64,000 bases of DNA from assembly GCF_003363265.1 (NCBI RefSeq), contig NZ_QRBF01000001.1, positions 962,451 through 1,026,450 of the forward strand. The letters run 5' to 3'. Shown here piece after piece: positions 1 to 47,207 of the stretch. Within the stretch, counting starts at the first letter, position 1. The number at the start of each line of letters is the position of its first letter. A program made the position numbers and the translations under genes. The notes under the pieces are model-generated. The model did no database searches and was not told the DNA's origin. It saw nothing but the letters and a program-made list of their open reading frames with translations. The DNA is from Dyella psychrodurans (GTDB taxonomy: Bacteria > Pseudomonadota > Gammaproteobacteria > Xanthomonadales > Rhodanobacteraceae).

Positions 1-1227
1 GAAGCCTTGCACCGGCCACGCGGCGGCTTCGCCGAACGCGCAGATGGTGTGGCCCTCGATCTGGCCGGCGATGGCCTTGAGGCGATGCAGGTCGTCCTGC
101 GTGCCCTTGCCTTCCACGATGCGGCTCAGCACGCGGAACATCCAGCCGGTACCTTCGCGGCACGGCGTGCACTGGCCGCAGGATTCGGCGTGGTAGAACT
201 GCGAGATGCGATGGCAGGCCTTCACCATGCAGGTGGTCTCGTCCATCACGATCACCGCGCCGGAACCGAGGCCCGAGCCCAGCTTCTGCAGGCAGTCGTA
301 ATCCATGGTGGCGGTCATCATTTCCTCGGCATTGAGCACCTTCATCGAAGAGCCGCCGGGAATCACCGCCTTGAGTTTGTTGCCGTTGCGCACGCCACCG
401 GCCAACTCCAGCAAGTCCTTGAACGACGTGCCGAGGCGAACTTCGAAGTTGCCCGGATGGTTGACGTGGCCGGACACCGAGAAGATCTTCGGACCGCCAT
501 TGTTCGGCTTGCCGAGGTTGAGGAACCACTCCGCGCCGTTGCGCAGGATCGCCGGCACCGAGGCATAGGTTTCGGTGTTGTTGATCGTGGTCGGCTTGCC
601 GTACAGGCCGAAATTGGCCGGGAACGGCGGCTTGAAGCGCGGCTGGCCCTTCTTGCCTTCGAGCGATTCCATCAGCGCGGTTTCTTCGCCGCAAATGTAG
701 GCGCCGGCGCCGAGTGCGCCGTAGATGTCGACGTCGATGCCGCTGCCTTGAATGTTCTTGCCGAGCAGGCCGGCCGCGTACGCTTCCTTCAATGCCTCTT
801 CGAAGTGTTCGAAGGGTTCATGATGGAATTCGCCGCGCAGGTAGTTGTAAGCCACCGTCGAACCGGTCGCGTAGCACGCGATCGCCAGACCTTCGACCAC
901 CGAATGCGGGTTGTAGCGCAGGATGTCGCGGTCCTTGGCGGTGCCGGGTTCGGATTCGTCGGAGTTGCAGAGAATGTACTTCTGCATGTTGCCCTTCGGC
1001 ATGAAGGACCACTTCAAACCAGTGGGGAAGCCCGCGCCGCCACGGCCGCGCAGGTTGCTGTTCTTGACGATATCGACGATCGAGGCGGGATCGGGCTTCT
1101 CGGCGAGGATTTTCTTCCACGCCTTATAGCCGTCCATTTGCAGATAGCTGTCCATCGCCCACGGCTTGTCGAAATGCAGCGTGGTGTAGACGACCTGGTG
1201 TTCCTGGGGTGCGGGTCCGACTGCCAT
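1..1227 (-). CDS. nuoF: NADH-quinone oxidoreductase subunit F (partial, 3' end outside window)
   Basis: Peripheral-arm subunit of respiratory complex I that binds NADH and FMN and passes electrons to cluster N3. The first 409 residues are present and the C-terminus lies beyond base 1. The glycine-rich FMN/NADH loop GRGGAGFP is at residues 61-68. The N3 4Fe-4S ligands are Cys350, Cys353 and Cys356 (in ESCGQCTPC) and Cys396. The start is the ATG at 1227, ten bases after the nuoE stop, with the conserved family N-terminus following. It is the last visible gene of the nuoA-F series on this strand; nuoG onward should lie to the left of the window. Confidence 0.97.
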
Positions 1228-45193: not shown

Positions 45194-45222
45194 TTGCAAA
45201 GTCAGAAAAGCCCCACTAGATT
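45194..45222 (+). promoter_or_regulatory. candidate sigma70 promoter for the 45.2-kb structured RNA
   Basis: TTGCAA (45194-45199) and TAGATT (45217-45222) with a 17-base spacer predict a start near 45229, immediately before the hairpin array and about 345 bases ahead of the hydrolase start codon. Each box matches consensus at four of six positions. Confidence 0.35.
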
Positions 45223-45228
45223 CCGCCA

Positions 45229-45480
45229 AACTTTTTTCGGCACCCACCAGCCCGCAGGGTGCCGTGATACGCGACGAACCGGAGGGGTCCGGATCGGCGC
45301 GACCCGGCAGAAATAGTTGCCGGAGGACAATTCGCCGTATGCGCGAACACGCTGCACGCATGGGCCTTTAGCCCGCAGCGTAATTGCCAAATCAATGCCG
45401 ATCAGCACCGGACATGCTGGTCGATTCCGCCACGTTTTCGTGGCCAACCGTTCGCGCCACAAGTTTCGGCGCGTGCGATA
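45229..45480 (+). ncRNA. putative structured RNA or long 5' leader of the SleB-like gene
   Basis: No believable gene occupies 45142-45573. Seven stems tile this part: 45238-45264 (eight pairs), 45279-45292 (five), 45304-45323 (six), 45349-45381 (seven pairs ACGCTGC/GCAGCGT enclosing a GGGC/GCCC stem), 45400-45422 (eight, with G-U), 45429-45444 (six pairs, UUUU loop) and 45453-45473 (six). No known RNA motif is recognised: not tmRNA, RNase P, 6S or a riboswitch I know. It may be a stand-alone RNA or a cis-regulatory leader; strand is inferred from the promoter and downstream gene. Confidence 0.35.
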
Positions 45481-45573
45481 GATCCAGGTGGAACGGCCTG
45501 CCCGCCCGTCCACCGCAACTGCGTCAAAAGCATGCATGTGGTGCTCTGACGTGACTGCAAGTTGGAGGCAGAT

Positions 45574-46008
45574 ATGAAACTTTCCATGTTGTTGTGGCTG
45601 ATGTCCGTGTTGCCCCAACCGCTCGCAGACCAGACTTGTCTGGCGACCACCGTCTATCTGGAGGCACGCAGCCAGTCGACGATCGGTCAGATGGCCGTGG
45701 CAGAAGTTGCCATGCGTCGACGCGAACGCGGTCAGTGGGGCGGCACGGTATGCGATGTGGTGAAATCGCCGCATCAATTTGCATTATCCACAACGCCACA
45801 GTCCCAGGACATCGACAATCTCAAGGCCTTCCAGAAGGCGTGGGATATCGCAGGCAAGTCGATCGTCAACTGGGATCTTCCCGTCGACGAGCGTCGCTTC
45901 TTCGTTCCGCATGCGGATCACTTCGCCACGGCATCCGTCGCGCCCGTGTGGTCGCACAATCGCAGCGCCGTAACGATCGGCGATCACAAGTTCTATTCGG
46001 TCAACTGA
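45574..46008 (+). CDS. cell wall hydrolase, SleB-like (Hydrolase_2)
   Basis: A 144-residue secreted protein with a short hydrophobic N-terminus (residues 1-16, probable signal peptide) and a single SleB/CwlJ-type lytic domain. The likely catalytic Glu30 lies in TTVYLEARSQ, followed by GQMAVAEVAMRRRERG and the SPHQFALS segment, with TVCDVV between. The ATG at 45574 has GGAGG eight bases upstream. SleB enzymes are known from spore cortex lysis; in non-sporulating bacteria they are presumed peptidoglycan remodelling enzymes. It follows a long hairpin-rich leader and ends at a strong terminator. Confidence 0.85.
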   Translation: MKLSMLLWLMSVLPQPLADQTCLATTVYLEARSQSTIGQMAVAEVAMRRRERGQWGGTVCDVVKSPHQFALSTTPQSQDIDNLKAFQKAWDIAGKSIVNWDLPVDERRFFVPHADHFATASVAPVWSHNRSAVTIGDHKFYSVN

Positions 46009-46081: not shown

Positions 46082-46549
46082 TCAGCGCGGATACACCAGG
46101 TTGTTGTTGATCACGACATAGTCGCCGGGGCGAACGCCTGGATTGGGAATCTGCGTAACGGTCGCGTACTGGCCGTTGTCGAGACGCACGACGATCTGCC
46201 ACGCAGGCACCGTGCCGCCCGGCTGGCTGTTGGCCGCCCCCACCTGATTGCCCACGACGCCGCCAACCACCGCGCCGCCGACGATAGCTGCCGTATTGCC
46301 CCGGCCGTGACCGATCGTGCTGCCCAACAGACCGCCAGCCACGGCGCCGATCACGGTGCCGACGCCGCTGTTATTGGTGCCCTGCTGCTGGATGTACACC
46401 TGCTGGATCTGCTGCACCACGCCGCAGCTCTGGCAGCCGCGATAGCCGTAGGTCGTCTGCCCCTGATAAGCCGGTTGCGTCTGACATCCGGAAAGCGCCG
46501 CCACGCCCACCAAGAGCGCTGCCACCACACCGAACTTGCTTGACTTCAT
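46082..46549 (-). CDS. glycine-zipper 2TM-domain lipoprotein (second of pair)
   Basis: A 155-residue lipoprotein with lipobox LSGC (Cys22), a Gln/Tyr-rich linker with two Cys (QSCG region) and a glycine zipper at about 62-104 (GTVIGAVAGGLLGSTIGHGRG then a second GxxxG series), of the 17-kDa surface antigen/SlyB-like type. The C-terminal part VRLDNGQYATVTQ is a small OB-like outer membrane lipoprotein motif. The ATG at 46549 has a full AAGGAGGT site. It follows its paralogue by 28 bases and is likely co-transcribed. Confidence 0.88.
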   Translation of the reverse strand: MKSSKFGVVAALLVGVAALSGCQTQPAYQGQTTYGYRGCQSCGVVQQIQQVYIQQQGTNNSGVGTVIGAVAGGLLGSTIGHGRGNTAAIVGGAVVGGVVGNQVGAANSQPGGTVPAWQIVVRLDNGQYATVTQIPNPGVRPGDYVVINNNLVYPR

Positions 46550-46577
46550 ATTCACGACGACCTCCTTGATGTAACGA

Positions 46578-47207
46578 TCACTGCGCATCCGAGACTGCTA
46601 CGACGCCACCCTGCTGCACCATGACCTGGTTGCCCGGGTCGTGGTCCATGCGGGTCGTGCGCGTGACGCCGTTGAACACATACGTCACGTCATAAGCCAC
46701 GATATTACCGCCGGGATTCGCAACGGTAGTGCAATGGTGAACTACCTCGGCCTTAACGTTTTTATCCTGCTCGTGCGCCTCGATGCGATTGCCCGCATAG
46801 CCGCCGCCGGCCGCGCCGGCGACCGTCGCGATGGTATTTCCCTTGCCGCTGCCGATCATGTGGCCCAGCAGGCCGCCTGCCACGGCGCCAATGACCGTGC
46901 CCGCGATCCGATGCTGATCCTTCGGCGGCACCTTCTTGTATACCGTTTCGTCATGACAGACCTGCTGCGGCGCGCCGGCATCCCGAACGGGCGTTACGCT
47001 CACCACCTGCGCGTATTGCGCGCCGCCCACACCGGTCTGCGGCTGACCGGGCTGCCCGGCAACCTGGGCCGCTTCTGGCGCGCTGCTTGTAGCCGCCACA
47101 CCCGCGTTATCGACGTCCGTGCCCGCTTGCTTGCTGCAGGCTGTCAAACCGAGTGCAAACGTTGTCGCCAGACTCATGCACAATGCTTTGACTATCAACT
47201 TGCTCAT
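46578..47207 (-). CDS. glycine-zipper 2TM-domain lipoprotein (first of pair)
   Basis: A 209-residue lipoprotein with lipobox LTAC (Cys24), an Ala/Gln/Pro-rich linker to about residue 70, and a glycine zipper at about 103-143 (GTVIGAVAGGLLGHMIGSGKG) that resembles its neighbour closely. The C-terminal domain (VKAEVVHHCTTV, DVTYVFNGVTRTTRMDHDPG) is beta-rich. A role in outer membrane integrity is a family-level inference. It is divergent from tatD across a 192-base gap. Confidence 0.88.
   Translation of the reverse strand: MSKLIVKALCMSLATTFALGLTACSKQAGTDVDNAGVAATSSAPEAAQVAGQPGQPQTGVGGAQYAQVVSVTPVRDAGAPQQVCHDETVYKKVPPKDQHRIAGTVIGAVAGGLLGHMIGSGKGNTIATVAGAAGGGYAGNRIEAHEQDKNVKAEVVHHCTTVANPGGNIVAYDVTYVFNGVTRTTRMDHDPGNQVMVQQGGVVAVSDAQ

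Follow-up and report, generated by a model that had tools for sequence, protein, structure and literature searches.

A conserved structured RNA element upstream of a SleB-like hydrolase gene in Rhodanobacteraceae, most likely the leader of that gene

Introduction

Large orphan structured leader motifs, of the kind treated in the main texts of PMC2864571, PMC8632094 and PMC11109978, resemble the element described here in that they were found by covariation, lie in intergenic DNA and keep to one gene. The words Xanthomonas and sleB are absent from those three main texts, and searches of abstracts and of main-text passages, which also took in PMC7694677 and PMC3039613, gave no report of this RNA. 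According to PMC7694677, 190 of 612 sRNA candidates of Xanthomonas come from mRNA 5' UTRs. A narrow literature search returned no study of the SleB-like hydrolase gene in the bacteria considered here. To our knowledge, leader RNAs of such size that are kept on one gene are uncommon.

The window analysed in this study is a stretch of 64,000 nucleotides from Dyella psychrodurans. An earlier note on this DNA, prepared from its letters, had pointed to an unannotated structured RNA, either a leader or a small RNA, in front of a SleB-like gene. Our analysis supports that claim, as the interval is conserved, carries compensatory changes and is better read as a leader than as a small RNA. We regard it as a structured RNA of Rhodanobacteraceae that has not been catalogued until now and that most likely serves as the sleB leader.

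Results

The element lies in a gap of 432 bases between the end of a ygfZ-like ORF (45141) and the ATG of sleB (45574). This length agrees with the earlier note. Mechanically called ORFs overlap the gap on both strands, and the four compared with Pfam gave nothing near a curated cut-off (best E 0.23). The gene downstream (45574-46008, plus strand, 144 aa) is sleB-like and carries a Hydrolase_2 domain (PF07486, Pfam E 5e-13), and a Hydrolase_2/SleB-like gene is present in 144 of the 147 Rhodanobacteraceae genomes. After sleB, at 46082-47207 of the window, there are two neighbouring minus-strand ORFs with glycine-rich repeats, of the outer membrane lipoprotein type as judged by eye.

A promoter-like feature occupies 45194-45227 of the plus strand, with a -35-like TTGCAA (45194-45199), a spacer of 17 bases and a -10-like TAGATT (45217-45222). 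Both the letters and the spacing are exactly those noted previously, and they are conserved across loci, since TTGCNN-(15..19)-TAGNNT was found in 43 of 50 loci, with a spacer of exactly 17 in 42 of the 50. In the alignment of relatives, the conserved blocks GGCACTTGC and CCACTAG..TCCGCC flank a variable spacer. The GC-rich CCGCC (45223-45227, plus strand), between the -10 element and the predicted start, stands at the discriminator position, and we take it to resemble the discriminator of growth-rate-controlled promoters. A consensus promoter scan reported none at its threshold. The conserved promoter-like elements predict a transcription start near 45229 on the plus strand, with transcription running into sleB.

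The earlier note had allowed that the interval might lack conservation in relatives. When the 432-base gap was used as a DNA query, matches were obtained in 84 of the 147 family genomes, the window's own included. The aligned part (window 45221-45572) measures 324-367 nt in 50 loci, and the alignment of relatives reveals a conserved promoter block, near-invariant cores and conservation that extends through the Shine-Dalgarno site to the start codon. Two models were used for searching: R1 for the 5' part, built on alignment A3 (5' core hairpin; without L035 and L036), and R2 for the 3' part. At E<=0.001, R1 gave 95 matches in 92 of the 147 family genomes, and 84 of these matches, including all 82 with E<=2.9e-6, are placed 211-279 nt upstream of sleB on the same strand; the remaining ones are all weak, nine of them elsewhere and two upstream of sleB on the opposite strand. 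R2 matched 83 of the 147 genomes, and every one of its 83 matches ends 0-9 nt before sleB. Three genomes (G001, G006 and G023) have an R2 match without an R1 match, and with the two profiles combined the RNA or a recognisable part of it was detected in 87 of the 147 genomes. Among 229 genomes of the class, R1 had two matches, namely the window's own and a weak one in G481 (E 3.6e-4).

Loss or divergence of either part alone was also observed. Loci L035 (genus g7) and L036 (genus g23) are without CGCGACGA and keep the 3' core, and four of the five R1-matched genomes of genus g13, including Oleiagrimonas, give no R2 match. The two modules therefore evolve apart and, judged by these comparisons, the element is composed of two modules that are separately lost or diverged and adjoin one gene. 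No copy was recognised in about 57 of the 144 sleB-bearing genomes, although some may have been lost to the strict filters, and sleB can therefore exist without this exact RNA. In genus g25, two weak R1 matches lie on the strand opposite to sleB, at 207 and 203 nt before it (G097:C169:4928-5030 and G108:C56:673-775), as either a reverse-complement hairpin match or a diverged leader.

Among named records, the core pattern occurs in genera that include Dyella, Rhodanobacter, Frateuria, Oleiagrimonas and Pinirhizobacter. Of the 80 core-pattern loci listed (from 112 matching stretches), 65 match the nucleotide profile, and the 15 that do not were dropped as chance. Four of those 15 (L062, L063, L088 and L097) belong to Curtobacterium and may represent chance or coding sequence. 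SleB was detected directly downstream in 56 of the 65 RNA loci, and the other nine end with the sequence stretch. One contig labelled Candidatus Eremiobacteraeota, perhaps mis-binned, has the start of the RNA at its edge (L117:1-123).

These data bear on the question of whether the interval might encode an independent small or medium RNA, which would have its own promoter and end beside sleB, or would be processed from the sleB transcript and act in trans. The conserved promoter of its own, the highly conserved 5' core hairpin and the precedent of many sRNA candidates derived from 5' UTRs in Xanthomonas (PMC7694677) speak for such an RNA. However, neither R1 nor R2 has a strong match away from sleB, conservation continues past the Shine-Dalgarno site to the start codon, the gap is without a plus-strand terminator-like site (factor-dependent ends are invisible to such a scan), and only 9 of 85 leaders have TTTT in the 120 nt before sleB. 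The constant position before sleB and the scarcity of T runs at the 3' end favour a leader over an sRNA, and we consider the independent RNA unlikely; processing of the leader into a trans-acting RNA is possible.

No family of Rfam 15 reached its gathering threshold for the interval, and a search with all Rfam families at E<=10 gave only two short fragments (E 3.4 and 6.1), in agreement with the earlier statement that no known RNA motif was recognised. There was no match at gathering score in 18 other sleB loci either. The size of the element and the occurrence of one strong match per genome would suit a diverged copy of a housekeeping RNA, such as RNase P RNA, 6S RNA or tmRNA, yet apart from these Rfam results, the RNase P RNA (E 3.1e-102) and 6S RNA (E 1.1e-18) of the same genome are located elsewhere in it. 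This candidate, whose probability we rate as negligible, was rejected.

The interval 45194-45573 folds better than its dinucleotide shuffles on the plus strand (z -3.35, a value that none of 100 shuffles reached), and also on the minus strand (z -2.34; 3 of 100). Bases 45229-45478 have z -3.55, a value as low as which was found in 1 of 120 random 250-base stretches of the window, whereas the 250-base stretch that begins at 45323 is ordinary, its z of -1.63 being matched by 16 of the 120. In a fold of the window sequence alone, with pairs spanning up to 70 bases, seven local stems are formed between 45238 and 45477, at 45238-45264, 45270-45301, 45304-45323, 45349-45381, 45399-45423, 45429-45444 and 45449-45477. 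The number of stems proposed in the earlier note was thus reproduced, and the density described there as unusual is reflected in folding better than that of shuffles and of most of the window.

For the analysis of covariation, alignment A1, whose percentages describe the typical form of the leader, was composed of 31 of the 50 loci, without 11 close relatives and the 8 most diverged loci (L031-L036, L044, L045); a set of 85 sequences comprised the 50 loci and 35 leaders from named records with full 3' ends. RNAalifold predicted 69 pairs from the 31 sequences, 33 of them with pair-keeping changes on both sides. An edited structure of 70 pairs was obtained by omitting four of the RNAalifold pairs and adding two pseudoknot-type helices that involve Shine-Dalgarno bases. 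Three of the omitted pairs joined the GCC just after the -10 box to the GGC at the Shine-Dalgarno site, and were left out, since a transcript from the predicted start should not contain that GCC. In the edited structure, 93.7% of cells are paired (30-39% in slid controls), double changes occur in 32 of the 70 pairs (11-15 pairs when slid), and the covariation score is 0.234 (at most 0.046 when slid); none of 500 shuffles reached the observed values. Since the same alignment had served to derive this structure, the window sequence folded by itself was tested too, with 78.5% of cells paired versus 30-38% in slid controls and a score of 0.201 versus at most 0.067. Poorly held in that fold were the long central stem (44%) and the 3'-most stems (47-67%).

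Under a tree-aware null, which keeps the tree and the column rates and was applied to the 85 sequences, p<0.01 was found for 8 of 93 pairs of the single fold, against 0-2 of 88-93 in slid versions; two pairs passed Bonferroni correction and no slid pair did. When all 68,635 column pairs were scanned under a simple tree-aware null (40 simulations), none was significant at E<=0.05, although each of the five highest-ranking pairs belongs to a predicted helix. In this comparison of relatives, most local stems are supported by compensatory changes, beyond the shuffled, slid and tree-aware controls. The alignment suggested in the earlier note has therefore revealed compensatory changes in local stems, and the variation, instead of breaking the stems as had been allowed for, keeps pairs above controls.

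Compensatory pairs are a signature of RNA, which argues against reading the interval as a conserved DNA element or a coding sequence, i.e. as regulator sites, a leader peptide or an N-terminal extension of SleB. It is true that, of the 81 leaders with a GTG or ATG motif in the 3' core, 68 have a frame that starts there and stays open as far as sleB. Nevertheless, this frame joins SleB in 24 of the 81, is out of register with it in 44 and ends ahead of sleB in 13, the start motif is missing from 4 of the 85 leaders, and the four overlapping ORFs compared are without a Pfam match. The protein-coding reading was rejected for its inconsistent frames in the 3' core and the absence of Pfam matches in the overlapping ORFs, and this whole group of explanations is very improbable in our view.

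Covariation and the position before sleB delineate a predicted structured leader RNA of about 345 nt, from the predicted start to sleB (45229-45573); its assignment to the plus strand, to which all the features below refer, follows from the promoter and the gene. Hairpin 1 (45238-45264; 45238-45245 with 45257-45264) has double-sided changes in 5 of 6 consensus pairs and 87.1% of cells paired. It is followed by the 5' core hairpin (45270-45301), CGCG-A-CGA-A-CCGGA / UCCGG-A-UCG-G-CGCG, which has two mismatches and a nearly invariant sequence: the letters CGCGACGA are present in 48 of 50 loci, and all 10 counted pairs are invariant in the 31 sequences, so that covariation cannot be seen there. 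Hairpin 3 (45304-45323; 45304-45310 with 45317-45323) shows double-sided changes in 2 of 5 consensus pairs (96.1% paired). The central region (45325-45398) is variable, its stem 45349-45355 with 45375-45381 is supported in part only, and the helices drawn there by the single-sequence fold have 44-75% of cells paired. Double-sided changes were found in 5 of 6 consensus pairs of hairpin 5 (45399-45423; 88.7% paired), in 3 of 5 pairs of hairpin 6 (45429-45444, GCCAC..GUGGC; 100% paired) and in 8 of 9 pairs of hairpin 7 (45449-45477; 87.4% paired), which contains the best covarying pair, 45455-45471, at the top of the 68,635.

The 3' core (45483-45514) consists of UCCA (45483-45486) and a hairpin, GGUGGAACGG..CCGUCCACC, whose loop CCUGCCCGC is mostly invariant; the hairpin is 100% paired, with double changes in 2 of 9 pairs. 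A terminal stem-loop (45515-45558), given here in its consensus form and drawn differently by the single-sequence fold, stands just 5' of the Shine-Dalgarno region. Its outer two pairs are invariant, the next four are 96.8% paired with double changes in two, and the inner five are 74.8% paired with double changes in all five. The Shine-Dalgarno region UGGAGGCAG (45563-45571) is conserved in A1, with UGGAGGCA identical in 31 of 31 sequences and the last G of the region in 30 of 31.

With so many GC-rich hairpins, one could also imagine a ligand-free thermosensor or stability element, in which hairpins melt with heat or protect the mRNA. RNA thermometers need no conserved core. The unpaired and mismatched core positions, however, appear to be conserved beyond what melting or protection would need, and no thermometer family of Rfam matches. 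Such an element is, in our opinion, quite unlikely.

The strand of the RNA could in principle be read from its wobble pairs. In the consensus structure, G-U cells (109, or 78 without one invariant pair) exceed A-C cells (43), but because this structure was chosen on the plus strand, the excess is partly built in. In an unbiased count, restricted to pairs that are Watson-Crick in the window sequence and made over the other 30 rows, the excess was gone (72 G-U and 78 A-C cells in local stems; 167 and 186 over all pairs), and the argument was dropped. The two counts being equal, covariation does not tell the strand; what indicates the plus strand is the promoter, together with the Shine-Dalgarno site and the unvarying place of the element ahead of sleB. 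An RNA of the minus strand, antisense or independent and ending in the sleB promoter region, would be in keeping with this unbiased count and with the good folding of that strand (z -2.34). Against it stand the plus-strand orientation of both the conserved promoter-like pair and the conserved Shine-Dalgarno site, and the constant strand, relative to sleB, of the strong R1 matches and of every R2 match, which leaves this alternative exceedingly improbable.

The whole UGGAGGCAG is complementary to two near-invariant elements of the 3' core. The proposed long-range pairing joins UCCA (45483-45486) to UGGA (45563-45566), and the CUGCC loop (45498-45502) to GGCAG (45567-45571). In A1, these two helices are 98.4% and 96.8% paired with zero compensatory changes; being nearly invariant, the pairing with the Shine-Dalgarno site cannot covary. 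At three g13 loci, CUCA (UUCA in one) stands at the corresponding place and faces UGAG. The complementarity seen here is suggestive, but sequences able to pair with a Shine-Dalgarno site are easily found. In 41 sampled leaders of the 85, the mean unpaired probability of the Shine-Dalgarno site was 0.328, as compared to 0.267 in shuffled leaders, and lower than in shuffles in 16 of 41. Nested-fold accessibility thus gives no support to default sequestration of the site in Rhodanobacteraceae leaders, with the limit that only nested partition-function folds were used, so that the proposed loop pairing is outside the model. A GGA-rich (CsrA/RsmA-type) reading was considered by eye only, and set aside.

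R1 and R2 were also applied to the DNA preceding sleB at 40 loci, drawn from deeper genera and from further families of the order, and had no solid match (best R1 E 0.0087, L198). The models fail to recognise this DNA in L193-L212, which belong to deeper genera and to families other than Rhodanobacteraceae; L193 and L201 have a TAG..T-TCGCC block which by eye resembles the -10 region of the Rhodanobacteraceae leader. In a second family, probably Xanthomonadaceae (L213-L232), sleB has a different leader with conserved blocks of its own: TCCCC-N3-ACGCC in 19 of 20 loci and ACGGAGCAAGGAG in 18 of 20. Counted from a conserved promoter-like block to a point just beyond the Shine-Dalgarno site, this leader is 166-235 nt long (19 loci). 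RNAalifold found 8 consensus pairs in 19 of the 20 loci (without L221), one with a double change, and its structure is consequently not established. The unpaired probability of its Shine-Dalgarno site was 0.310, versus 0.338 in shuffled sequences, and lower in 16 of 19.

Discussion

That the interval holds a conserved RNA structure is, from the comparison of related sequences, close to certain; that this element is a cis leader of sleB is likely, and that the leader gates sleB translation is plausible. The best explanation, which we hold with somewhat more confidence than doubt, is that the interval is a large plus-strand 5' leader that gates translation of sleB in response to a signal. In such a mechanism, transcription from near 45229 would read through the leader into sleB, and the 3' module (UCCA and the CUGCC loop) would pair with UGGAGGCAG and close the ribosome site. 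The 5' module with its invariant core hairpin might sense the signal, which could be a metabolite, an ion, a protein or an sRNA; the two mismatches give the 5' core the look of a binding site or a tertiary contact. By shifting the pairing of the Shine-Dalgarno site, the signal would allow a possibly harmful autolysin to be made only when wanted. Gating stays a proposal, as such complementarity is easy to find, no compensatory change occurs in it and accessibility is not below that of shuffles.

A bolder version, which we put forward tentatively and consider rather doubtful, would see in these roughly 340 nt a new class of riboswitch or protein-sensing RNA, one that monitors cell-wall status and, in response, turns the translation of a SleB-type autolysin on or off. 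The signal might then be, for example, a peptidoglycan precursor or turnover product, and the differing leaders of sister families might do the same job. If the element is a switch, its ligand would show what a Gram-negative bacterium measures before making a SleB-like hydrolase. Several distinct leaders may precede this one gene within the order, and in that case the evolution of leader regulation could be put to the test.

Among the systems to which this leader may be likened are the leaders of the second family. They are not recognised by R1 or R2, but they precede the same gene and contain UCC able to pair with GGA. The other comparison is with translational riboswitch leaders, which act by masking the Shine-Dalgarno site. 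Unlike these, the sleB leader matches no Rfam family, R1 finds a single weak match besides the window's own among 229 genomes of the class, and the gating is a proposal to which nested-fold accessibility lends no support. It resembles them in being a structured 5' leader that precedes one gene family, with its conserved core well away from the gene and with complementarity to the Shine-Dalgarno site in its 3' part.
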